Of a stretch of 19,899 nucleotides of DNA, positions 2,360 through 19,221 are shown one piece after another (the first letter of the stretch is position 1; each line of letters starts with the position of its first letter). The position numbers were made by a program, and so were the translations under genes. The notes beneath the pieces are model-generated. The model saw only the letters and a list, made by a program, of their open reading frames with translations, did not search any database and had not been told where the DNA came from. The stretch is from Nitrososphaerales archaeon TH5896 (GTDB lineage Archaea > Thermoproteota > Nitrososphaeria > Nitrososphaerales > Nitrososphaeraceae). Location of the stretch: assembly GCA_014523625.1 (NCBI GenBank), contig JAATVP010000120.1, positions 1-19,899 of the forward strand, written 5' to 3'.

Positions 2360-2773
2360 TTACCGTCGGGCAGGCTCGAATAACTCAATCGGGTTGCCAT
2401 CTGGGTCTTCCACCTGGATCTGTCTGCCGCCGGGGCCGACTTCCATCTCATTTCTGAAACGCACTCCCTCCTTCTTGAGTTCGGCAATACGCGTAGGCAA
2501 GTCCTGGGCTTGGAGGACTATCCGGTTCCATCCACCTGGCTCTTGCTGACGGCCATCGGGCATCGATCGAGAACCCGAGGCTCCGGGACCGCTGAGAATA
2601 AGTTTGAGATCGCCTATCGAAACCTGACCGAAAGCAGGCAAATTTTGCAGGTCCAGATTGAAACCGAGCATCTTAGTATAGAACGCAATCGAGCGCTGAA
2701 CTTCTTTGACTTGATATCGAACGCCCCAAAGTCCTAGGATGAAGTTCTGTACCTTTGTTGATGAGTCCTCCAT
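2360..2773 (-). CDS. VOC-superfamily (glyoxalase/bleomycin-resistance/dioxygenase fold) protein
   Basis: A 137-residue protein if started at the ATG at 2773. VOC proteins are metal-dependent enzymes or binding proteins built from paired beta-alpha-beta-beta-beta units. The family pattern is clear: GVRYQVKEVQRSIAFYTKMLGF at the front (first module), then SIGDLKLILSGPGASGSR, WNRIVLQAQDL (second module) and the closing EDPDGNPIELFEPARR, whose Glu is the usual metal ligand. The substrate is unknown. Upstream in-frame starts exist: an ATG at 2818, about 25 nt below a TATA-like GTATAAGG, which would fit a leaderless archaeal message, and a GTG at 2854. I prefer 2773 because it gives the usual family length. 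GC is visibly above the flanks, and the gene is followed by an SD-led ORF, so bacterial origin is likely. Confidence 0.85.
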   Translation of the reverse strand: MEDSSTKVQNFILGLWGVRYQVKEVQRSIAFYTKMLGFNLDLQNLPAFGQVSIGDLKLILSGPGASGSRSMPDGRQQEPGGWNRIVLQAQDLPTRIAELKKEGVRFRNEMEVGPGGRQIQVEDPDGNPIELFEPARR

Positions 2774-3229
2774 GTTTTTACTTGTCCTCGGTGGAGAATG
2801 TTTTTCGTTGTGATACATAAGAATTTCTGTTGAATAGTCATATTCCTTATACACTATCGACCTATTTACAAGATTTGGAATACTATGGGGGAAGGTATTT
2901 CATAATGAAAAAAGAGAGGATCAGTTCAATGAGGAATTTTGGTTCTTCAATCATAAATAAAAATAAGAACACATATAGTTCATGTAATACGTGTTAGAAA
3001 TCTTTTATTTTCTTATAGAATAGGACAATATTCATGCGCACATTAATTCATTCAATTATAACTAAATATCACATTTGCAGGTGTTTCATTGATAAGACAC
3101 TTGTGTAAAGGTTATGGATCGTCGACGTCACATTTTACGTTGACAAAACAAGGGATCACAGTGCTGACTTAAAGTTGCGGCGGCGAGAACTTAATCCATA
3201 GTGTTAACTTCAGGACTAAACACAGACTT
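2774..3229. other. Intergenic region, promoter side of the VOC gene
   Basis: AT-rich, with no credible ORF. The minus-strand TATA-like GTGTATAAGG (about 2845-2854) is a candidate VOC promoter. No repeats or RNA genes were recognised. Confidence 0.35.
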
Positions 3230-3433
3230 ATGTTAGAGCAATTGCATAAGATAGTCAGCACACACCAACCACGAGTAGACCTAGCCAAGTTCTCAAAGGT
3301 TGCAATGGCATTAAGAACAGGCAGCAATAAACCAAATGGGAATATCTGGGATTTAGACAAGGCACAGTCGAATCCAAATGATGTCCTTGATGCGCTGCGT
3401 TTAGCGTTACTTTGTTTGAGGAGTAATAATTAG
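3230..3433 (+). CDS. Small hypothetical protein
   Basis: 67 residues from the only ATG in this frame; an in-frame stop lies about 60 nt upstream. It is soluble and mixed-charge with a probable C-terminal helix (PNDVLDALRLALLCLRSNN) and a middle segment KVAMALRTGSNKPNGNIWDL. No known domain is recognised. The stop is about 40 bp before the repeated promoter block that drives the hydrolase pseudogene. The opposite strand also stays open here, so coding status is uncertain, but the amino-acid composition is protein-like. Confidence 0.45.
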   Translation: MLEQLHKIVSTHQPRVDLAKFSKVAMALRTGSNKPNGNIWDLDKAQSNPNDVLDALRLALLCLRSNN

Positions 3434-3470
3434 AAAATGTCTTCAAACAGCGGAACATATTCAATTACAT

Positions 3471-3545
3471 TTCATGTGTATTGGACTCTAATGATTAAAG
3501 ATATCTTTAAATAACAGACTATTTTATAATGACTACTGAGTTATT
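3471..3545 (+). repeat. Promoter/start block, copy 1 (of the hydrolase gene)
   Basis: About 75 bp that recur without indels 2024 bp downstream at 5495-5569. The central 40 bp (3494-3533) are identical, with scattered mismatches on both sides. The block contains a 16-bp palindrome, a TATA box and the first codons of the hydrolase (ATG at 3529, Met-Thr-Thr-Glu). Confidence 0.9.
3495..3513 (+). promoter_or_regulatory. TATA box with overlapping 16-bp palindrome (copy 1)
   Basis: TTAAAGATATCTTTAA (3495-3510) is a perfect palindrome whose right half runs into the TATA box TTTAAATA (3506-3513). The ATG at 3529 lies about 23 nt after the TATA box, as expected for a leaderless archaeal transcript. 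A dimeric regulator bound to the palindrome would block TBP/TFB. The ArsR-type protein encoded at 5111-5431 is the obvious candidate, by inference. Confidence 0.65.
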
Positions 3546-4440
3546 GTCTATGGAAAAATTGGATGTAATGAAAATTTGGAAAACAACAGAAAATCTTTCC
3601 CGACTACTGGGTCAAAGCAGACCATTATATTGTAAGGTAGCTGTCGTCTCTGCTCTGATTGTCATGCTTCTTGTTACATCTTCAATTGTTCTCCATCAAC
3701 AGCAAATTACAGCACAGAAACAAAAACAGTCTGTATCTAATCAAACAGCATTTAATATGGAAAACCCTGTCGAAGATCTATCTTTTGAGATGGATAATGT
3801 GACATTTTCGCATCATAAAGCATCTGTTAATGGTATTCAAATGCATTTTGTAATTGGAGGCAAAGGGGATCCTGTAGTATTGTTGCATGGATGGCCACAA
3901 GCTTGGTACGAATGGCATACTCCTATGCAGCCATCCATCCTGAAAACGTAAGCAAGTTAGTAATACTAGATGTTCCGGTCTTGGGTATTCTGCCTATAGA
4001 GACTGATAGCAGGCTTTGGCATATTCCGTTTCATCAAGTACCCGACATACCCGAATTTCTTGTAGAAGGCAAAGAGCGAGAGTATTTGTCGATCTTCTAT
4101 AAGGTATGGGCATATAATCCAGAGGCAATTACTGAAGCCGACATAGACGAGTACGTTAGCCATTATTCTGCACCTGGGGGAATGCGCGCTGGTTTTGAAT
4201 ATTACAGAGCTTTTCCCATAGAGGAAGAGCAAAATAGAGAATTCTCTAAGGTTAAGCTTCAGATGCCTGTTCTAGCACTTGGTGGAGAATATAGTTTTGG
4301 CACAGCAGCATTGGAATCAATGAAGTTACTCGCTACAAATGTTAGTGGCGGGCGGCACTGTTCCTTTCTCTGGACACTGGATTGCTGAAGAGCGTCCAGA
4401 CTTTCTCATTAAGGAGCTTGCAAAGTTCTTTAGTGAGTAA
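3529..4440 (+). pseudogene. Epoxide-hydrolase-like alpha/beta hydrolase, broken by deletion and frameshift
   Basis: The intact family uses an Asp nucleophile, a His and an acid to hydrolyse epoxides or related substrates. Here an N-terminal hydrophobic anchor (about residues 37-57) precedes the family start NGIQMHFVIGGKGDPVVLLHGWPQAWYEW, which holds the oxyanion-hole HGWP. At about 3912-3915 the frame jumps directly to MAYSYAAIHPENVSKLVILD. The roughly 50 residues between, which should contain the nucleophile elbow (GHD.G), are gone, probably through recombination at a shared ATGG. A second lesion is a tandem GGCG duplication at 4347-4354. Undoing it restores the end GTVPFSGHWIAEERPDFLIK (catalytic His in GHW), with a stop at 4438. 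Both breaks were found by matching frames to the family pattern. The gene cannot make an active hydrolase. Confidence 0.88.
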
Positions 4441-4645
4441 CAACAAAACAGCTCCTAATGTAATAACATCAACTTGTAGCGAAGTCAACTCAGTCCTGGA
4501 AAGTATTTAGTACAACAATATAGTATCACCATGCGTTGTATATTCATGTCCATCTATCATACGAATTCATATTTAGATATTGATGTTGTTGCTTCGTACC
4601 TAACATGGAACCTGTCTGACTACTCATCGACAATTAAACATTATC

Positions 4646-5107
4646 TCACCTTTTTGCCTCCATCTTGGAGTTACAGTGCACAACCAACCTATCCAAGTAG
4701 TAATCCCACCCTTTCCTGTGTTCATCATACATTTCATTCTCTGCTCCGATAAATCCAGAATGTACCAACTCTACCTTAGTCTTATCGTTTCCAATCTGTT
4801 CTAATTGCCATGTTACTATGGTTTGTGGAAAACCTGCTATATCTTTATGATCCCATGTGTATGAGATTTTCTGGTTGGGGACAAATTCTAGCACCTCACC
4901 CTCAGGAGAATGATCTCTATCCTGGTTTTCAGAGTTTTCACTATGAAACGTGAACTTCACTTTTCCCCCCATCCTTGGCTCTAAGACAGCAAGGTCTGGA
5001 AACCATTCAATTATTTCCTTTTCATCACTAATTGCTTTGAAGACCATATCTGGAGGAGCATCGATCACTACAACCTTCCTAATTGCCCTATCATTGGTAC
5101 TAATCAT
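4646..5107 (-). CDS. SRPBCC/AHSA1 (START-like) domain protein
   Basis: 153 residues. This fold is a ligand-binding cavity related to the Aha1 C-terminal domain; members bind hydrophobic small molecules, and few have a known role. Recognisable elements are the opening strand IRKVVVIDAPPDMVFKAISD, the Trp-containing IIEWFPD, MGGKVKFTF, then the strands GEVLEFVPNQKISYTW, TIVTWQLEQIG, TKVELVHSGF and a C-terminal helix with GWDYYLDRL. It starts 3 nt after the ArsR stop codon, so the two form one transcription unit. ArsR-SRPBCC pairs are common in bacteria and archaea, the SRPBCC partner often being the regulated function. The ligand is unknown. Confidence 0.9.
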   Translation of the reverse strand: MISTNDRAIRKVVVIDAPPDMVFKAISDEKEIIEWFPDLAVLEPRMGGKVKFTFHSENSENQDRDHSPEGEVLEFVPNQKISYTWDHKDIAGFPQTIVTWQLEQIGNDKTKVELVHSGFIGAENEMYDEHRKGWDYYLDRLVVHCNSKMEAKR

Positions 5108-5110
5108 ATC

Positions 5111-5431
5111 CTATTTCCTTTTACCCTGTTTCCTCTTCTTATTTTCTACAAACTCTTTCAAGGAATTCAAATTGTTACTCCACATTTGGTCATAGAAGTT
5201 TTTTATTTCTAAAGTTGCTTCAGTATTAAGTGAATAGAGTCGTCTTTGCCCCTCCCTCCTCTCCTTCACTAAATCAGCATCCCTCAATATACGTAGATGT
5301 GTGGAAACGCCCGCTAGAGTCATATCAAAGTGTTCTGCCAACTCAGAAGGAAACATGTTCTTATCTTTTAATAACAATAACATATGTCTTCTGCTATCGT
5401 CCGACAAGGCTTTCCACACCGATGCTCCCAT
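5111..5431 (-). CDS. ArsR-family winged-helix transcriptional regulator
   Basis: 106 residues, the usual size. The N-terminus VWKALSDDSRRHMLLLLK is typical of the family. The helix-turn-helix spans about residues 28-50 (PSELAEHFDMTLAGVSTHL), followed by RILRDADLV and the wing KERREGQRRLYSLN. The metal-binding Cys motif of classical ArsR/SmtB sensors is absent and the protein has no Cys, so it does not sense metals in that way. It is first in a minus-strand pair with the SRPBCC gene and divergent from the DUF899 gene. A palindrome over the DUF899 promoter, repeated at the hydrolase promoter, is a plausible operator. The C-terminus is basic (KKRKQGKRK). Confidence 0.92.
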   Translation of the reverse strand: MGASVWKALSDDSRRHMLLLLKDKNMFPSELAEHFDMTLAGVSTHLRILRDADLVKERREGQRRLYSLNTEATLEIKNFYDQMWSNNLNSLKEFVENKKRKQGKRK

Positions 5432-5454
5432 AACAATTCAATATTAAAAGAACT

Positions 5455-5464
5455 GCATAAATAC
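5455..5464 (-). promoter_or_regulatory. Candidate TATA box of the arsR-SRPBCC pair
   Basis: The minus strand reads GTATTTATGC, centred about 28 nt before the ArsR ATG at 5431, the distance expected for an archaeal promoter with little or no leader. Confidence 0.45.
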
Positions 5465-5494
5465 TTTATCAATCTAATAAATTGGATTTAATAA

Positions 5495-5569
5495 TTCATA
5501 CGTATTAGAATCTAATAATTAAAGATATCTTTAAATAACAGACTATTTTATAATGACCACTTAGTGGAT
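5495..5569 (+). repeat. Promoter/start block, copy 2 (before the DUF899 gene)
   Basis: The second copy of the block at 3471-3545, at a constant offset of 2024 bp. The 40 bp 5518-5557 are identical to 3494-3533. The start codon of the hydrolase is retained (ATG at 5553) but its fourth codon is TAG instead of GAG, leaving Met-Thr-Thr-stop. The second codon differs only synonymously (ACC for ACT). Similarity fades after about 5569, just before the DUF899 ATG at 5580. Confidence 0.9.
5519..5537 (+). promoter_or_regulatory. TATA box with overlapping 16-bp palindrome (copy 2)
   Basis: The same palindrome (5519-5534) and TATA box (5530-5537) as at the hydrolase promoter. It lies in the divergent region between arsR and the DUF899 gene. 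Transcription would start near 5553, giving the DUF899 message a short leader with a three-codon mini-ORF (5553-5564). Confidence 0.6.
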
Positions 5570-5579
5570 TAAATAAGTA

Positions 5580-6380
5580 ATGACAAGCTTGAAAGATCAC
5601 AAGATCGGAACACGTGAGGAGTGGCTTGCTGCCCGGCTGGAGCTGCTCAAGGCCGAGAAAGAGCTGACGCGACGTAGCGACGAGCTGGCGCAGTGGCGGC
5701 AGAGGCTGCCTTGGGTTAGAATTGACAAGGAGTACCGTTTTGAGACCGACGAGGGCATGGCGTCTCTTGCCGATCTGTTCAGAGGACGCTCGCAGCTCCT
5801 CATCTATCACTTCATGTTCGGTCCTGAGTACACAGGCGGCTGCCCCGCATGCTCTGCGATCGCGGACGGCTTTAACGGCTTCGCCGTGCATCTTGAGAAC
5901 CATGATGTCGCGATGATCGCAGTCTCACGCGCCCCAATTGCCGCGCTTCAAGCCTACAAGCGCCGCCTGGGCTGGACATTCACTTGGGCTTCGTCGCTGA
6001 ACAGCGATTTCAACTACGACTTCAACATCTCGTTCACCGAGGAACAGCAGCGCTCCGGCAGCATCGACTACAACTACAACACGGTCGGAACGACACTCGA
6101 CTCGGAGGCCAGCTCAAAGGGCCGTCAAGACCGGATTCGAGCGAGCCTCGACCCAGGCGAGTTCGCGGCCATGACCGGCACCGACGTCCCCACCTATACC
6201 CGCGAGGCGCCCGGCATGAGCTCGTTCGCACTCTCCGACGGCATCATCTACCACACCTACTCCACCTACGCGCGCGGCCTCGACTTGCTCTGGGGAATGT
6301 ACCAGTGGCTCGACCGGGCGCCGAATGGGCGGAATGAAACGGGGCTGTGGCTTCGGCGGCACGACGAGTACGTGTCTTGA
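5580..6380 (+). CDS. DUF899 family (thioredoxin-like) protein, GC-rich, likely acquired
   Basis: 266 residues. The DUF899 pattern is strong: an N-terminal helix (TREEWLAARLELLKAEKEL), LPWVRIDKEYRF, LADLFRGRSQLLIYHFMFGP, a CPAC motif at residues 88-91 (GGCPACSAIADGF), VSRAPIAALQAYKRRLGW, and the C-terminal GIIYHTYSTYARGLDLL and QWLDRAPNGRNE. The family has a thioredoxin-like fold and is mostly uncharacterised; a redox role for CPAC is plausible but unproven. GC is far above the neighbours (42 of 60 bases in 6181-6240), against a strongly AT-rich surround, which points to recent bacterial origin. It sits behind a copy of a resident archaeal promoter and divergent from arsR. The start at 5580 is the first ATG with the family N-terminus. 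Confidence 0.93.
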   Translation: MTSLKDHKIGTREEWLAARLELLKAEKELTRRSDELAQWRQRLPWVRIDKEYRFETDEGMASLADLFRGRSQLLIYHFMFGPEYTGGCPACSAIADGFNGFAVHLENHDVAMIAVSRAPIAALQAYKRRLGWTFTWASSLNSDFNYDFNISFTEEQQRSGSIDYNYNTVGTTLDSEASSKGRQDRIRASLDPGEFAAMTGTDVPTYTREAPGMSSFALSDGIIYHTYSTYARGLDLLWGMYQWLDRAPNGRNETGLWLRRHDEYVS

Positions 6381-6604
6381 TCGTTATTTCTGCGTTCATG
6401 GTAAGAACTGCCGAGGCAATCCGTCAAAGTGATCAGACCGAGAGTTGTGCACAGGATTGCAATCTGCAATGATTGCAAATGGCGGGATGATGATATACAA
6501 TTAGTAATGATGTAGTGCAGCAGCACTTTCATGCATAGATATTTTTTTACTTGGCGCTACGATGTCAAATGTCTTTTTATCTCATGATTTGCCAAATAAG
6601 GGTA

Positions 6605-6915
6605 TACAAGTAGAAATTTAGAACTGGAGGTGACTTAAGAAGCGGAGTAAAACGAAAGGAATTCACCTAAGAACCCAATACCTTAGGGACCCAAACGCAA
6701 TACTACAAAGGGCTATTGAGAAGTATCTGAATTACTCACCGAATCTTTCAATATAAGAAAGAAATTGAAGATTAAAAGTCTGAAGTTATGTAAACCTATA
6801 GTCACAAGGTAGATCAGTTCTGTCACTATGGCATGACATTATGAGTTGTGCGAATAATGTCACCTTTTGAAAATTTGTTTTGATCAGAATAGCATCTAGA
6901 TTCTGTTAGGAATTC
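6605..6915 (+). repeat. Degenerate ~300-bp direct repeat, copy A, with ORF remnant
   Basis: It aligns by eye with 8943-9228: shared landmarks are TACAAGTAGA at the start, CTGGAGGTGA, CGAAAGGA..CACCTAA, ACGCAAT, a GACATTA cluster and GCATCTAG near the end. The offset drifts from 2338 to 2316, so small indels have accumulated. The + frame from about 6634 to 6753 is open and reads KGIHLRTQYLRDPNAIL then QRAIEKYLNYSPNLSI before TAA, preceded by a stop. A perfect 9-bp inverted repeat (TGACATTAT 6834-6842, ATAATGTCA 6854-6862) lies inside. It is probably the remains of a mobile element or a duplicated gene. It fills most of the gene-free stretch 6381-6961, where I see nothing else. Confidence 0.65.
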
Positions 6916-6961
6916 GACAAGTGTAGACGGTAGGGTCTTAAATTGACTTCAAAAAATTAGT

Positions 6962-7378
6962 CTAAATTATAATGTTCAATTTTACTACGTCCTTTTCTTC
7001 ATTCTTCTTTAAAGTTATATGCTGGTGTTTTTCATTCCAATGATAGACAAAATCATTAATTGTAGGTTGAAGAAAGCTTTTACATAATTCGCCGTGCTGT
7101 TTTGCAGTTTTTCCTATTTTGTTACCAAATTTAATACATTTCCAACACCCAATAAATGGGATCAGATAAACCACCCTATATCCAAGATATCTTGAGGTGT
7201 ATCCCCATGCCTCCCCCACTATACACATTTCTGGCTTGCGAATAAGAACATGTAAATCACTCTTATCAAGGTCGGCTTTAAGTTTGTTTGACCAAGTTGG
7301 ACATATGTCTTCAAATGTTAAGTATTCTGATGATGATGATGATGATGATACCTCTTCCCTAACATTCGCCTTTTGCAT
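6962..7378 (-). CDS. Hypothetical Cys-containing protein with a poly-Ser tract
   Basis: 138 residues. The N-terminus carries seven consecutive Ser encoded by a perfect (TCA)7 run (7328-7348 on the + strand). The rest looks globular: a hydrophobic centre YLGYRVVYLIPFIGCWKCIK with a CxxC (C78, C81) and further Cys at 26, 52 and 99, plus several His near the C-terminus, which could bind a metal. No known family is recognised. It is the downstream member of a minus-strand pair, 21 bp after the small gene at 7400-7612. It ends close to degenerate repeat copy A. Confidence 0.65.
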   Translation of the reverse strand: MQKANVREEVSSSSSSSEYLTFEDICPTWSNKLKADLDKSDLHVLIRKPEMCIVGEAWGYTSRYLGYRVVYLIPFIGCWKCIKFGNKIGKTAKQHGELCKSFLQPTINDFVYHWNEKHQHITLKKNEEKDVVKLNIII

Positions 7379-7399
7379 TATGATATAATGAGGATTATT

Positions 7400-7612
7400 T
7401 TATTTATGCTTATCTATAGTATTTACATATTGAAACGAAGCTTTGTAATTCAACTGATTTATTACGTACGGCTCATTCAGATAACACTCTGGCTCACTTT
7501 TTGTGATAGGGTTTGGATTAGATTTTTGTCGCAATAGCACGTCAAAATGAACGTGGCTTGTGTCGCTTTTTAGAATTTTGATTCTAATAGTTTCATTTAG
7601 TGATTCAACCAC
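7400..7612 (-). CDS. Small hypothetical protein
   Basis: 70 residues from a GTG start. The beginning (LNETIRIKILKSDTSHVHFDVLLRQKS) alternates like beta strands. The C-terminal half is Asn/Tyr-rich. There is no signal peptide, membrane segment or known motif. It lies just upstream of the Cys-containing hypothetical gene on the same strand and is divergent from the LLM oxidoreductase, which makes a shared promoter region of about 85 bp. The start is uncertain because no ATG is available near the front. Confidence 0.4.
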   Translation of the reverse strand: MVESLNETIRIKILKSDTSHVHFDVLLRQKSNPNPITKSEPECYLNEPYVINQLNYKASFQYVNTIDKHK

Positions 7613-7696: not shown

Positions 7697-8716
7697 GTGA
7701 ATCAATTCACAGAAAATAAAGTACAGTTCGGACTTACTATTCCGCAAGGATGGAGAGGAGGAGATCTACCATTACAGCAAGAAAACGACCCAGTTAAGCA
7801 GTATGAATTCTCAAAATCCATATCAATAACAGCTGATAATATCGGATTTGATTCGATTTATGCATATGATCATTTAATTCCATATTACAAAAATGATGTA
7901 AACAAGAACATTTTTGAATGCCTTACTTTACTATCATCTTTAACAGCAATCACAAAAAGAATAAAGATAGGGCAGATAGTGACTTGTAATTCATATCGTA
8001 ATCCAGCACTTTTGGCAAAAATAACCTCTACTTTGGATGTTATTAGTCATGGTAGATCAGAATTGGGCATAGGAGCAGGGTGGTATGGTCGAGAATATGA
8101 ATCCTATGGATATGATTTTCCGTCTCATGTCACCAGAATTGATCAGTTAGATGAAGCATTAACAATAGTCAAAGCAATGTGGAGTAATGAAATATCGCCT
8201 TCGTTTGAAGGTAAATACTACAGGATAAAAGATGCAATATGCAATCCAAAGCCAATTCAAAAGCCTCATCCTATTATCATGATTGGAGGCTCTGGTGAAA
8301 AATATTTGCTAAAGGTGGCAGCAAAACATGCAGATAGATACAACCTTTTCTTTGGATCGCCTGATAACATGAAAAGAAAAATATCTGTTTTGAAGGAATA
8401 CTGTAAGTCTCTTGAAAGTAGTAGAGGCATAGGAAATCACAAAGATATTCAATATTCTGTTGTATTACCTTGTATTATTAGGGATTCAGAAGAAGAAGTG
8501 TATCAGATTATCGAACAGTATAAAAGAAACGATAAGACTGTAGACCAATACATCAAAGATCTTGTTAGTGGTATTGCAATCGGAGTTCCTGAAAGAATTG
8601 TAAAAGGTATAAATGAATATCTTGAACTAGGTGTAACACATTTCATTTTTCAATTCATCGGGTTGGATGAGAAAACACTGAAACTCTTTCATTCTAAAGT
8701 AATTAGAAAGATCTAG
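7697..8716 (+). CDS. LLM-class F420-dependent oxidoreductase (luciferase-like)
   Basis: 339 residues, a usual length for this TIM-barrel family, whose archaeal members use coenzyme F420 (others use FMN) for hydride transfer. Visible family features are the first strand VQFGLTIPQ, FDSIYAYDHLIPY, the segment LTAITKRIKIGQIVTCNSYRNPALLAKITSTLD, the hallmark GRSELGIGAGWYGREYESYG, RIDQLDEALTIVKAMWS, FEGKYYRIKDAICNPKPIQKPHPIIMIGGSGEK and a C-terminal GVTHFIFQF. The substrate cannot be told. The start is GTG; a TATA-like CATATATA lies about 20-27 nt upstream (7670-7677), consistent with a leaderless message. It is divergent from two hypothetical genes and possibly followed by a tiny membrane ORF. Confidence 0.93.
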   Translation: MNQFTENKVQFGLTIPQGWRGGDLPLQQENDPVKQYEFSKSISITADNIGFDSIYAYDHLIPYYKNDVNKNIFECLTLLSSLTAITKRIKIGQIVTCNSYRNPALLAKITSTLDVISHGRSELGIGAGWYGREYESYGYDFPSHVTRIDQLDEALTIVKAMWSNEISPSFEGKYYRIKDAICNPKPIQKPHPIIMIGGSGEKYLLKVAAKHADRYNLFFGSPDNMKRKISVLKEYCKSLESSRGIGNHKDIQYSVVLPCIIRDSEEEVYQIIEQYKRNDKTVDQYIKDLVSGIAIGVPERIVKGINEYLELGVTHFIFQFIGLDEKTLKLFHSKVIRKI

Positions 8717-10232: not shown

Positions 10233-10673
10233 CTATCTCTTTAGTTTTTGTATGCTTTCAGCAACTAGTTTTTCGACAGCCCCTCCAGTTCCTTCCAATA
10301 ATGGAGAATCCTGATGGGCCATCAATAACTTATCAAAATTATCCGCTCCCAGAAGGAGTTTATCCTTTTCATAATAAAGTGATATATGCCCTGGTGTATG
10401 TCCTGGGGTATGAATGACCTTAAGACTTCCAATCATATCGCCATCAGACACTTGCTCATCAACACTAATAGGTTCTACCTCGAAACTTCCGTATTCCTTT
10501 ATTAATGCCCTCATTGAGACTCCAAGCTTCTCTAATTTTTCAACTGTTTCTTGTGCAGAAGGAGGACCCAGGTACGGTGGATTCTGTCCTAGATATCTTG
10601 CCTCAATCCAATGGGAATAGATCTTGGCACCAGATTTCCTCTTTACTTTATTGGCAGCTTGTGAATGATACAT
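10233..10673 (-). pseudogene. Truncated metallo-beta-lactamase-fold hydrolase
   Basis: 146 residues that begin inside an MBL-fold domain. Present: NKVKRKSGAKIYSH, the region around YLGPPSAQETVEKL, and HTPGHTPGHISLYYE (residues 88-102) with its metal-binding His, then LLLGADNF. Missing: the first 60 or so residues, including the first strands and the HxHxDH motif that holds both metals. At its expected place only MYHSQAANKV remains. The end also lacks the usual last His motif and finishes early. With both metal sites incomplete it should not be an active hydrolase. I treat it as a decayed gene, although the open frame of about 440 bp means a small protein could still be made. Confidence 0.7.
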
Positions 10674-10749: not shown

Positions 10750-11793
10750 TCAGAATCCAATCTTTACTAACATTTTGCCAATATTTTCTCCTTTAAACAG
10801 ATACAAAAAAGCTTTGGGTGCATTTTCTAGACCTTCAATCACAGTTTCTCTCCATTTCATTTTGCCTTCACCAATCCATTTGGACATATCAGTATGAAAT
10901 TCGTCTAACATGTCATAATGATCTCTAACAATAAATCCCTGAAGCTTGAGTCGATTAGATATTGCTAGAAAAAGGTTAGACGGACCTGTAGGTATCGAAG
11001 TTAGATTGTATTGTGATATCATACCACAAAGCGCAATTTTGCCAAAGGTTTTCATGTTGTCAATAGCTGCTTCTAAATGCTTTCCTCCAACGTTATCAAA
11101 ATAAATATCAATTCCATCAGGATAAGATTTCCCTATCTCAGCTGAAATATTCGTTTCTCCTATCTCTTTATAATTAAAGGCATGATCTATTCCAGCTTGA
11201 TCAAGTAACCATTTTACCTTTTCATGTGAACCAGTACTTCCTATAACATGGGCGCCCTTTATCTTTGCAATCTGACATGCCACAGAACCAACGGCTCCAG
11301 CAGCTGCAGATACAAATACAGTACTATTATCATTGTCAATTAATTGGGCAATTTTTAAAATGCCCATATAAGCTGTAAGACCTGTCAAGCCCAATATACC
11401 CAAGTACCATTGAATTGGAGCCATGTTTGGGTCGATCCTTGTTACATCACTCCCGCTACCATCGGAAATCCAGTATTCTCTCCAGCCTAAGTTTCCGAGA
11501 ACATAATCGCCTACAGTAAATTTGTTATTATTTGATTTTATGATTTGACCTACACATCCACCCTCAAGAGGATTCCCTATTTGAAATGGAGATATATAGC
11601 TCTTAATTTCTCTCATACGTCCGCGCATATATGGATCTACTGACATCCATATGTTGCGCACCAAGAATTCGCCATCCTTTAGATCTGGAACTTCTATTCT
11701 AACAAGCTGAAAATCATTTTCAGTAGGCATTCCAATTGGACGTTGCTTCAAATGAATCTCACGACTAAAAAGTCTCTCTTCTGTCATATGCAA
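10750..11793 (-). CDS. MDR-family NADP-dependent oxidoreductase (PTGR/CurA-like)
   Basis: 347 residues, full length for the zinc-free MDR group that reduces alpha,beta-unsaturated carbonyls with NADPH (prostaglandin reductase, curcumin reductase CurA). Signatures: SVDPYMRGRMRE (about 51-62), IGNPLEGGCVGQI (72-84), LGILGLTGLTAYMGI, the Rossmann motif SAAAGAVGSVACQIAKIKGA (162-181), GSTGSHEKVKWL for the NADP phosphate side, IDIYFDNVGG, and GMISQYN. The zinc-ligand cysteines of classical alcohol dehydrogenases are absent. The true substrate is unknown; detoxifying reactive enals is typical. A TATA-like GATATACAT lies about 20-26 nt upstream, which favours Met1 or Met3 (11787). It is divergent from the DUF763 gene. 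Confidence 0.92.
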   Translation of the reverse strand: MHMTEERLFSREIHLKQRPIGMPTENDFQLVRIEVPDLKDGEFLVRNIWMSVDPYMRGRMREIKSYISPFQIGNPLEGGCVGQIIKSNNNKFTVGDYVLGNLGWREYWISDGSGSDVTRIDPNMAPIQWYLGILGLTGLTAYMGILKIAQLIDNDNSTVFVSAAAGAVGSVACQIAKIKGAHVIGSTGSHEKVKWLLDQAGIDHAFNYKEIGETNISAEIGKSYPDGIDIYFDNVGGKHLEAAIDNMKTFGKIALCGMISQYNLTSIPTGPSNLFLAISNRLKLQGFIVRDHYDMLDEFHTDMSKWIGEGKMKWRETVIEGLENAPKAFLYLFKGENIGKMLVKIGF

Positions 11794-16853: not shown

Positions 16854-18031
16854 ATGAAAAGATTAGAATTAGTAGGACTGTGCTTCGGATTAGTAATAGT
16901 TCTAATTTTTGGCTCTATAGTCGTAAATTTATTCGTACCAGTTTATGCTCAAGGTGAATACGTTGTATTCCCAGAAACAGCGTCGGTTTCCACTACTGCT
17001 GATGTAACACCTCTCAAATTTATGCTCAAAGCCATATCAAAACCGAGCGGAGAAGTCGAGAAAGTCACAGGATTCAAGATTGATCCTACCTAAATGTCCT
17101 GAGTATCTCAGAAGGTGGCATCATCTCTCCTGTTTCGACAGACGAGTCTATGGTATTTGAACAAGCCAAAGCCACCTCTTCATCTGATTCTCTATTTGAA
17201 CTACAGAAGGCAACAAGACAAGGACAGCAATCAGAACCACCACAATCAATTGGTGGCTTCTCAATTACTGGTCTTGTCCCAGGAGTATATACGTTGGATT
17301 TGATTGGTACCAAAAATGGTGCTAAAGCCGCATACGAAGGCATATTGGTAATAGGTCAGAACACAGAGAATCCTCAAGTAAAGCAGATAGTAGAGAAGGA
17401 AGTCAATGAAGGAGAACAAGATACCACTATCATTGATATCGTAACTATATTTCAAACACCACCAGCTCAACTACAACAGCAACAAACATCACAGGGTCAA
17501 TCTCAGCCAGGAGCTCCACCACAGACTCTAGCAGCAGGGCAGCAGCAACAACCACAAAGTGGACTACCGCAAACTTTAGCAGCGGGACAGCAGCTTTCGA
17601 CCCAATCAACAGGACCCATTGCACAACAGTTGCCACCAGGCGGAGCGGGAGCCGGAATGCAGCCACTGGCAGCACAACCACAACCACAACAGCTGACTAC
17701 ACCAGCTGGCAATGGGCAGCAAAATGTGACTGGATCTGACCAATGCGTATTGAATCCAGGCCTGCCAGAGTGTCAACAAGTAGGTGATGTTCCCTTAGCA
17801 CTTCTGGGAGCAGAATCATGTCAAGAAGGATTTGTAGGTACTCCACCTCAATGTTCTCCAATAGAGTCTGGAAATGAACCGGTAGATCCAAACGAACCTT
17901 TATTACGGGACACTGGAGAAACTGGCGAAGGTGATGAAACTGAAGATTCAGGAGATTCTGATGATACAGATACTGAGGATTCAGAATCTGATTCAGAAAG
18001 TGATGGGGAAGGAGAAGGAGAAGGAGAATGA
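16854..18031 (+). pseudogene. Secreted Gln/Pro-rich, acidic-tailed protein with a one-base frameshift
   Basis: The frame starts at ATG 16854: signal peptide (about residues 7-33, ending PVYAQG), then EYVVFPETASVSTTADVTPL and EKVTGFKIDPT, where TAA stops it at 17091-17093. Another frame continues seamlessly as LNVLSISEGGIISPVSTDES into the long ORF that has an ATG at 17150 and ends at 18031. Adding one C to the CC before TAA restores a single protein of about 390 residues. Order: beta-rich domain with SIGGFSITGLVPGVYTLDLI, a Gln/Pro-rich stretch with two PQTLAAGQQ repeats, two Cys pairs (CVLNPGLPEC, CQEGFVGTPPQC), and an Asp/Glu/Ser tail ending in Gly-Glu repeats. It is probably a cell-surface protein. 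The break could be real, a sequencing error or programmed slippage. The stop overlaps the next gene's ATG. Confidence 0.75.
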
Positions 18032-19221
18032 AGAATCGGATCTATCTCTCTAGTGGTTCACTAATAGTGTGTTTTACGTTACTGTTGATCTTGGTTTTTG
18101 GTTCGGTTTTCTCCTCTACAAATAACACATTTGGGGCTGATATGCCGGGAGGTTCAATGGACAGTGGAGGCAGTGGGGGAAATAGTAACCAAGGTGGAGA
18201 TTCTGGAGATGGAGATGGAGATAACAGGGGTGACGACAGTTCCGATGCACCATTAACTACTGATTCTCTTACTGCAGGAGGGGATTCAGACGATGATTCG
18301 GAAGGGGTCGAAGATAATGATAATAATAATGACAATGAACCCACATCTAAAGATGCACCCGTAACTACTGATACTCTAACAGCGAAAAAGATAGAATGCC
18401 CTAAAGGTCAAGAAGTTAGTCTTTTCTCGACACTCTGTGCACCGAGTAAAGAACCATCCCTTGACTTTGATGCTATAATTGGAATTGACCCAGATAAATA
18501 TGGTTTGGTAGCTAGTAAGAACAATCCTGATGGATCTACGACCACTATCTTCCAAAACAAAGACCCGACACCTGATAAAGTTGTGAGAATTGAGAAAACT
18601 GCCTTTCGTGAGGGTACTACAAAAGTAATCTATGTAGATAAGTATGGCGGCACTACTGAGAGAAGAACTAATTCGAAAGGGAACATAGAGGAAATCGAAA
18701 AGGACAAAGATAACAACCTACTTCGGACCTACTCCTGCTGCCCTAAAGGAGTAGCAATAGATAGCAAATATTCAGGAGGGAAGCCATACCAAGTCAGCAA
18801 ATATCATGGAGACGAAAAGGAGATAACGAAAATTGCCCCAGATGATAGTTTTACACAGACCTCATTCTATGAGCCTGGTGTTTATCAACCAACCAAGATA
18901 GTTACCGATTATCGTGATCCACCAGGAAGAAAGGTTACGGAAACTTTTGATGGTAATGTAAGAACAGTAATTGATTATAACCCACAAGATGGTTGGACAA
19001 CTTCCAAATCCACTGACCAACGAACTGGCAGCACAACTACTGAGATAACTAAAAACAATCCAAATGGCAGCATTAGTACTAAGAATCCAGACAATACTAT
19101 AACGACTAAAAATAAGGATGGCAGTTGGTTTATTGCGTTTCCGTCGTCACAAGATGGTTCGGTTAAAACATATCATTCTGATGGTAGAACGACTATAGAC
19201 AAACCCCGAATAAATGAATAA
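18028..19221 (+). CDS. Secreted protein with acidic linker and YD-like beta repeats
   Basis: 397 residues. The ATG overlaps the previous stop as ATGA, and the upstream Gly-Glu codons (GGAGAAGGAGAAGGAG) serve as its ribosome-binding site, so translation is coupled. Residues 9-36 are a signal peptide. Residues 38-107 form a Gly/Ser/Asp/Asn-rich linker with an internal repeat (DAPLTTDSLTA, 73-83; DAPVTTDTLTA, 109-119). A Cys pair (ECPKGQEVSLFSTLCAP) and SCCPKG are likely disulphides. From about 155 the protein consists of short turn-strand repeats such as NNPDGSTTTIFQNKD, DKYGGTTERRTNSKGN, NNPNGSISTKNPDN and NKDGSWFIAF, like YD/RHS-type strand repeats, though no toxin or RHS core is present. A role as surface adhesin or matrix component is inference only. 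Confidence 0.85.
   Translation: MKNRIYLSSGSLIVCFTLLLILVFGSVFSSTNNTFGADMPGGSMDSGGSGGNSNQGGDSGDGDGDNRGDDSSDAPLTTDSLTAGGDSDDDSEGVEDNDNNNDNEPTSKDAPVTTDTLTAKKIECPKGQEVSLFSTLCAPSKEPSLDFDAIIGIDPDKYGLVASKNNPDGSTTTIFQNKDPTPDKVVRIEKTAFREGTTKVIYVDKYGGTTERRTNSKGNIEEIEKDKDNNLLRTYSCCPKGVAIDSKYSGGKPYQVSKYHGDEKEITKIAPDDSFTQTSFYEPGVYQPTKIVTDYRDPPGRKVTETFDGNVRTVIDYNPQDGWTTSKSTDQRTGSTTTEITKNNPNGSISTKNPDNTITTKNKDGSWFIAFPSSQDGSVKTYHSDGRTTIDKPRINE

Follow-up and report, generated by a model that had tools for sequence, protein, structure and literature searches.

In prokaryotes, near-identical promoters before non-homologous genes have reportedly arisen by promoter propagation, which is said to have been described by Matus-Garcia et al. 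in 2012. Unlike that phenomenon, the case presented here comprises only two copies and is local, not genome-wide. In bacteria, the capture of promoters by tandem duplication or deletion is known from the his fusions of Salmonella, the citrate transporter of the long-term experiment with E. coli, and the activation of transferred genes, and the published examples considered here are laboratory ones in bacteria (PMC11111574). Our locus resembles them in that expression would be gained by joining a neighboring promoter, and it differs in being natural and archaeal, in being about as old as the split between sister species, and in carrying a palindrome beside an ArsR gene. Gene fusions born by deletion are also described for bacteria, for fused gene fragments in general, in a second source (PMC12803068). 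The joins of DUF899 genes to hydrolase and SDR genes reported below likewise look deletion-made and keep the promoter and first codons; compared with the fusions described there, the retained part is the promoter and about 20 codons. In the open-access literature, examined by titles and the openings of abstracts, we found no report of this promoter-block case.

Results

Duplicated block before two non-homologous genes

The window, i.e., the whole stretch of 19,899 nucleotides analyzed here, belongs to the draft assembly of Nitrososphaerales archaeon TH5896 (2.74 Mb, 277 contigs, 92% complete). It contains a direct repeat of 71 nt on the forward strand, at positions 3471–3541 (copy 1) and 5495–5565 (copy 2), with a spacing of 2024 bp. 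The copies are identical at 64 of 71 sites (90%), and a site-by-site comparison revealed a run of 40 nt without a mismatch (3494–3533). This comparison confirmed the original prediction that a block recurs at a constant 2024-bp offset with 40 identical bp; the limits given for it (3471–3545 and 5495–5569) captured the repeat but not its ends, because the ungapped similarity stops at 3541 and 5565. When a gapped alignment was extended to the ATGs at 3568 and 5580, 114 of 4000 shuffles were equal to or better than copy 1 versus copy 2, and 187 of 2000 and 293 of 2000 were as good in the comparisons with the sister genomes G003 and G002, respectively. Copy 2 scored 11 in this extension, and nine other gene starts in the window scored 6.0–9.5. 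Homology of the copies beyond 3541 and 5565, up to these ATGs, is marginal.

Copy 1 is located before a hydrolase pseudogene, and copy 2 lies between the divergent ArsR and DUF899 genes, where it is kept in G002 and G003. This AT-rich block stands, nearly identical, before two non-homologous genes (an alpha/beta hydrolase gene and the DUF899 gene), as is expected of promoter capture or duplication. A query around copy 1 matched two places in the window's own 2.74-Mb assembly, both in the repeat (E = 1.2e-21 for the second), and no third copy was found. Chance is therefore excluded, and the block is not a dispersed repeat. In 61 genomes (E ≤ 0.001), a query around copy 1 matched four: its own, G003, G002, and G012, the last with a 26-bp piece. 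The 71-nt query also matched four of 70 genomes of the family, namely its own, G003, G002, and G070 (a 35-bp piece). The full-length block was found in neither set elsewhere than at this locus, and a plasmid collection gave zero matches to positions 3440–5620. A dispersed repeat or mobile element was ruled out by the two genomic copies, the search of 70 genomes, and the absence of a plasmid match. Two circumstances named in the original prediction as speaking against it did not apply: the block occurs twice in the assembly and is not a frequent dispersed repeat, and it occurs in three sister species rather than as the promoter of an ancestral DUF899 gene in many archaea.

Within copy 1, a perfect 16-bp palindrome, TTAAAGATATCTTTAA (3495–3510), is a candidate operator and overlaps a TATA-like box, TTTAAATA (3506–3513). 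The palindrome of copy 2 (5519–5534) is also perfect in G003 and has one change in G002. The usual spacing between the TATA box and the start in archaea puts putative transcription starts near 3536 and 5560. A 22-nt pattern of the palindrome was sought in 41 genomes with up to three mismatches, with the reversed pattern as a control. It occurred at 25 places in 16 of the 41 genomes, six of them in the block itself; the remaining 19 had three mismatches each, so that no match with fewer was found outside the block in these genomes, and the reversed pattern gave nine hits. On account of these mismatches and control hits, the palindrome was dropped as the operator of a wider regulon.

Directly before copy 1, positions 3230–3433 hold a 67-codon frame with no Pfam match. 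This stretch resembles positions 346–553 of locus L032 (72% DNA identity), which follow, in G001:C436, a broken DUF899 gene. Farther along the window, two adjacent low-complexity frames, one Gln/Pro-rich and the other Ser/Gly/Asp-rich, occupy positions 17150–19221.

Hydrolase pseudogene behind copy 1

The alpha/beta hydrolase gene behind copy 1 (3544–4440, forward strand) is a pseudogene. It was compared with the intact ortholog P0052, a protein of 361 aa with 41 member sequences that its source names an alpha/beta hydrolase of a Nitrososphaeraceae archaeon. The window gene matches P0052 in three pieces with 84%, 93%, and 97% identity; an internal deletion has removed residues ∼126–185 with a change of frame, and a second frame change near 4345–4352 could be an assembly error of the 277-contig draft. 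The missing part includes a Gly-His-Asp motif, which we take to resemble a nucleophile elbow. With these residues missing, the window gene lacks the complete fold with its nucleophile elbow (PF00561), for which an intact relative (L028:8602–9696) gave a match of 101 bits. Among the 70 family genomes, the N-terminal 40 residues matched only the window itself, and one database protein matched this N-terminus. P0052 had no match in viral contigs.

The annotated start of P0052 aligns to position 3544, i.e., 3 nt past the end of the block. The ATG within the block (3529 and 5553) is not conserved, being ATA in G002. The original prediction had placed the hydrolase start codon inside the copied block; because the block ATG is not conserved and the ortholog starts after the block, copied hydrolase codons are unsupported. 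The Met-Thr-Thr-stop of copy 2, which had been taken for a relic of this start, is conserved in neither sister and reads as a different short peptide in G003. Nor did the supposed decay of an original gene downstream of copy 2 find a counterpart: the decayed gene here is the hydrolase behind copy 1.

Sister genomes and age of the duplication

In G002 and G003, the block match is located directly before the orthologous DUF899 gene (91% and 92% protein identity, respectively). The window can be aligned with G002 at 1–2901 and 4234–6683, and with G003 at 4410–6600. The intervening segment without a counterpart in G002 (2902–4233) contains copy 1; what G002 retains of the hydrolase is its 3′ part, still in frame (residues 295–361 of P0052). 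DNA to the left of 4410 cannot be aligned in G003, where, as read by eye, the hydrolase appears to persist only as its final ∼33 bp; a protein search for a hydrolase remnant found nothing at that place. The site of copy 1 is missing in both sisters, and its presence or absence is therefore uninformative on the direction of copying.

Over the 71 sites, copy 1 differs from copy 2 at 7 sites, from G003 at 6, and from G002 at 11; copy 2 differs from G002 at 8 and from G003 at 9, and G002 and G003 differ from each other at 9. At three sites, copy 2 shares its base with G002, and copy 1 shares its own with G003; at one, the two copies go together. The neighboring genes of the window are nearer to G002 than to G003, both in AHSA1-ArsR (94.7 vs. 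91.9% identity) and in DUF899 (91.9 vs. 91.5%). Because of this order and the grouping of the sites, the duplication looks older than the split between the window and G002, although the counts are tiny (three sites against one). By divergence, it is about as old as the split of the sister species.

DUF899 gene and its 5′ end

The DUF899 gene (5580–6380, forward strand) matches the PF05988 profile over residues 5–264 with 310 bits (cut-off, 27). It is GC-rich: two 400-bp intervals inside the gene have a GC content of 0.57 and 0.62 and four that partly overlap it have 0.39–0.60, compared with 0.32–0.46 elsewhere in positions 2500–7499. In the named genome collection, 563 relatives were found, and the best 80 loci consisted of 7 from Nitrososphaerales and 73 from bacteria, the latter with 65–73% identity. 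A tree was constructed from 87 of the 93 rows collected, leaving out five identical rows and one partial row. In this midpoint-rooted tree, whose bootstrap had not settled, 11 archaeal rows, the window gene among them, form a clade (support 100/99), which groups with actinobacterial, Gemmatimonadota, and Chloroflexota rows. The archaeal rows of G025, G027, G029, and L151 are placed elsewhere among bacteria, which would fit at least two transfers. The original prediction was right that the gene is GC-rich and of bacterial ancestry.

The three block-bearing DUF899 genes form a clade (96/86), and their next relatives, in G003_C200 and G004, have no block. Among seven block-less archaeal DUF899 genes inspected, five (G003_C200, G004, G006, G016, and G023) carry an AAGGAGA-type site ahead of the start, G030 has GGAGGAGAG, and G025 has neither; similar sites to the AAGGAGA type precede bacterial members. 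The block-bearing proteins start with MTSLKDHKIG. Their first five codons (MTSLK, 5580–5594) are common to G002 and G003 and not found in the block-less archaeal relatives, to which DNA homology starts only at 5595–5598. These relatives, with their other leaders and no block sequence, mark DUF899 as a recipient at some point. Since the nearest of them keep a bacterial-type leader, the gene would have exchanged its 5′ end after it entered the archaeal family. The idea of promoter capture therefore held insofar as DUF899 did not bring the promoter, but not as a capture within the gene transfer itself, because block-less members of the clade keep the bacterial-type leader.

In G004, G006, G016, and G023, a short frame seems to precede the bacterial-type DUF899 gene, overlapping the start of that gene with its stop (ATGA) and containing the AAGGAGA-type site, as seen by eye and, for G006 only, by script. 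These frames lie upstream of 7301 in L028 and upstream of DUF899 in L029, L034, and L035.

ArsR-AHSA1 neighborhood

The gene order in the window is copy 1 and the hydrolase on the forward strand, AHSA1 (4646–5107) and ArsR (5111–5431) on the reverse strand, and copy 2 and DUF899 on the forward strand. The ArsR-family repressor-like gene, which is divergent from DUF899, matches PF01022 with 43.2 bits (cut-off, 22). ArsR matches numbered 28 in 22 of 61 genomes, the four best beyond the window and its two sisters being in G036, G026, G033, and G023. Another 12 ArsR-containing loci were mapped. In those of G036, G026, G033, and G023, ArsR-AHSA1 is divergent from an archaeal-type DUF899 gene whose protein is 41–45% identical to that of the window. 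ArsR stands before archaeal-type DUF899 on the same strand in G006, G024, G025, and G030, and ArsR, AHSA1, and DUF899 are all on one strand in G031. In three of the 12 (G004:C22, G012, and G015), DUF899 was absent from the stretch fetched. When the ArsR-DUF899 intergenic regions of four genomes were compared with the block, over two segments, as its possible ancestral source, 12 to 613 of 1000 shuffles were as good.

The window thus has the same order and orientation as the divergent ArsR-AHSA1/DUF899 unit of Nitrososphaeraceae, and differs from it in having a bacterial-type DUF899 and, between the divergent genes, the block. Most simply, a bacterial-type DUF899 would have replaced the archaeal-type gene at the ArsR locus in an ancestor of the three sisters. 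Near the start, the archaeal-type DUF899 of G004:C122 and G025 has LKDHKI and that of G030 has LEDHKI, much like the window. A crossover at this point would fit.

Besides these genes, the window holds other accessory genes of the detoxification type. Including AHSA1, these are a glyoxalase (2360–2854), AHSA1 (4646–5107), a luciferase-like monooxygenase (7697–8716), a metallo-beta-lactamase fold (10233–10673), and a zinc-binding dehydrogenase (10750–11793).

Archaeal-type DUF899 promoters joined to other genes

The archaeal-type DUF899 gene has a promoter of its own, which contains the palindrome CTCCCCAAGGGGAG, and its first codons are MNKIVSDEEWVEARKALLKK. A DNA search with this promoter and the first codons found 15 places in 8 of 61 genomes, the weak ones being pieces only. 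A 41-nt degenerate pattern for this start matched nine sites in 5 of 41 genomes (none with the reversed control): five DUF899 genes, a hydrolase gene in G004, two SDR genes (G000:C194 and G013:C68), and one broken frame (G001:C782). Identity to DUF899 covers the promoter plus some 20 codons, beyond which it is lost, and the joins to the hydrolase and SDR genes are in frame. A further promoter copy in G004, before another SDR gene, extends only a few bases beyond the start codon. As the captured codons match the N-terminus of the DUF899 family, DUF899 is the donor, and these fusions in the same genus are precedents of promoter capture whose polarity is clear. DUF899 and hydrolase genes adjoin in G002:C388 and G000:C268, and deletion is therefore a likely route to the fusions.

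In the protein database, the start of the hydrolase chimera matched 23 proteins (3 hydrolases, 1 SDR, and 19 DUF899), and the SDR chimera matched 29, of which 16 spanned all residues 1–45. Five of six inspected among these 16 have the DUF899-like start, and P0048 does not. The SDRs P0043–P0046, which start with MML(K/N)DKVAV, also lack it. A divergent HTH_45-type gene lies beside the archaeal-type DUF899 promoter in G004, G013:C68 (SDR copy), G000:C268, G002:C388, and G001:C591, and is not present at G000:C194 (an HxlR gene instead), at G000:C243, or at the DUF899 copy of G013:C68.

Locus L028 (G004:C323, 6285–9767) has two copies of the archaeal DUF899 promoter with the same orientation, separated by about 2.5 kb, one before an SDR gene and the other before a hydrolase gene; between them, on the opposite strand, lies the bacterial-type DUF899 gene. 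This layout is much like that of the window, with a different promoter. A database hydrolase, P0002, has a DUF899-like N-terminus and a body rather unlike that of the G004 hydrolase, as if it had been swapped again.

Discussion

Given the repeat, its conservation, the hydrolase pseudogene, the gene order, and the phylogeny, we consider an exchange of the 5′ end combined with an old, local duplication of the promoter to be the best reading, and a reasonably probable one. The common ancestor of the three sisters would have had a bacterial-type DUF899 already resident in the archaeal family, which would have displaced the archaeal-type DUF899 opposite ArsR-AHSA1. In doing so, the gene would have shed its Shine-Dalgarno-type leader and taken on five new codons along with the archaeal promoter block. 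The 71-bp block would also have stood before the neighboring hydrolase, presumably a full gene in the ancestor, which is now reduced to a different extent in each of the three species; copy 1 is visible only in the window. We infer from the sequence that the block acts as a promoter and that the palindrome is bound by the adjacent ArsR protein, which plausibly reads it as an operator; the hydrolase and DUF899 would then both be controlled through a single promoter and its palindromic operator.

Within this reading, there are two alternatives as to which gene lent the block. It may have been the promoter of the hydrolase, copied before DUF899 as the recipient, as the original prediction preferred. 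We regard this as possible, with limited confidence. The block-less DUF899 relatives have leaders of their own, so DUF899 was a recipient at some point, and the annotated start of P0052 right at the block end is what a promoter of its own would give. Against this, the 61 and 70 genomes yielded no further hydrolase preceded by the block, and it is on the DUF899 side that three species have retained it. The other alternative, a rather doubtful one, is the tandem duplication of a larger ArsR-promoter-DUF899-hydrolase unit, followed by the deletion of one DUF899, which left the promoter running into the hydrolase. The same-strand DUF899 and hydrolase neighbors in G002:C388 and G000:C268, the DUF899 5′ end fused to a hydrolase in G004, and the similar age of the copies and the species are consistent with it. 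However, no DUF899 codons are seen behind copy 1, and the hydrolase N-terminus, which matched only itself in the 70 genomes and one database protein, also argues against it.

An origin without duplication, in which two promoters of one regulon share an operator kept by selection, is improbable. The identical core is indeed centered on the palindrome and the TATA-like box, but the ungapped similarity of 90% over 71 bp is longer than an operator, the genome contains no further full-length match, and the palindrome pattern had no hit with fewer than three mismatches outside the block in 41 genomes. That the repeat is an artefact of the draft assembly with its 277 contigs is scarcely credible, as the copies differ at 7 sites, each in its own context, and copy 2 is present in two other assemblies.

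Under the preferred reading of 5′-end exchange and local duplication, the window shows promoter capture, an already-known kind of event, as it occurs naturally in an archaeon, and its recurrence is the interesting part. As a tentative and rather unlikely generalization, regulated 5′ modules made up of an operator, a TATA box, and first codons may serve Nitrososphaeraceae as portable caps that arise at DUF899 genes with a divergent regulator and are repeatedly placed on new oxidoreductase or hydrolase bodies. If this is true, the window would supply one such module (ArsR and palindrome), a second would be the HTH_45/DUF899 one that shows the fusions at 20 codons, the joins would often lie at about codon 20, and genes would enter an existing stress regulon in one step. 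The locus touches on the general question of how a transferred bacterial gene falls under archaeal control. Here, the stages are legible from living relatives, first a bacterial-type leader on the transferred gene and then an entire 5′ end swapped for an archaeal promoter next to a repressor gene, and the joins of DUF899 to hydrolase and SDR genes make the frequency of capture and the favored junction points testable by genome surveys.
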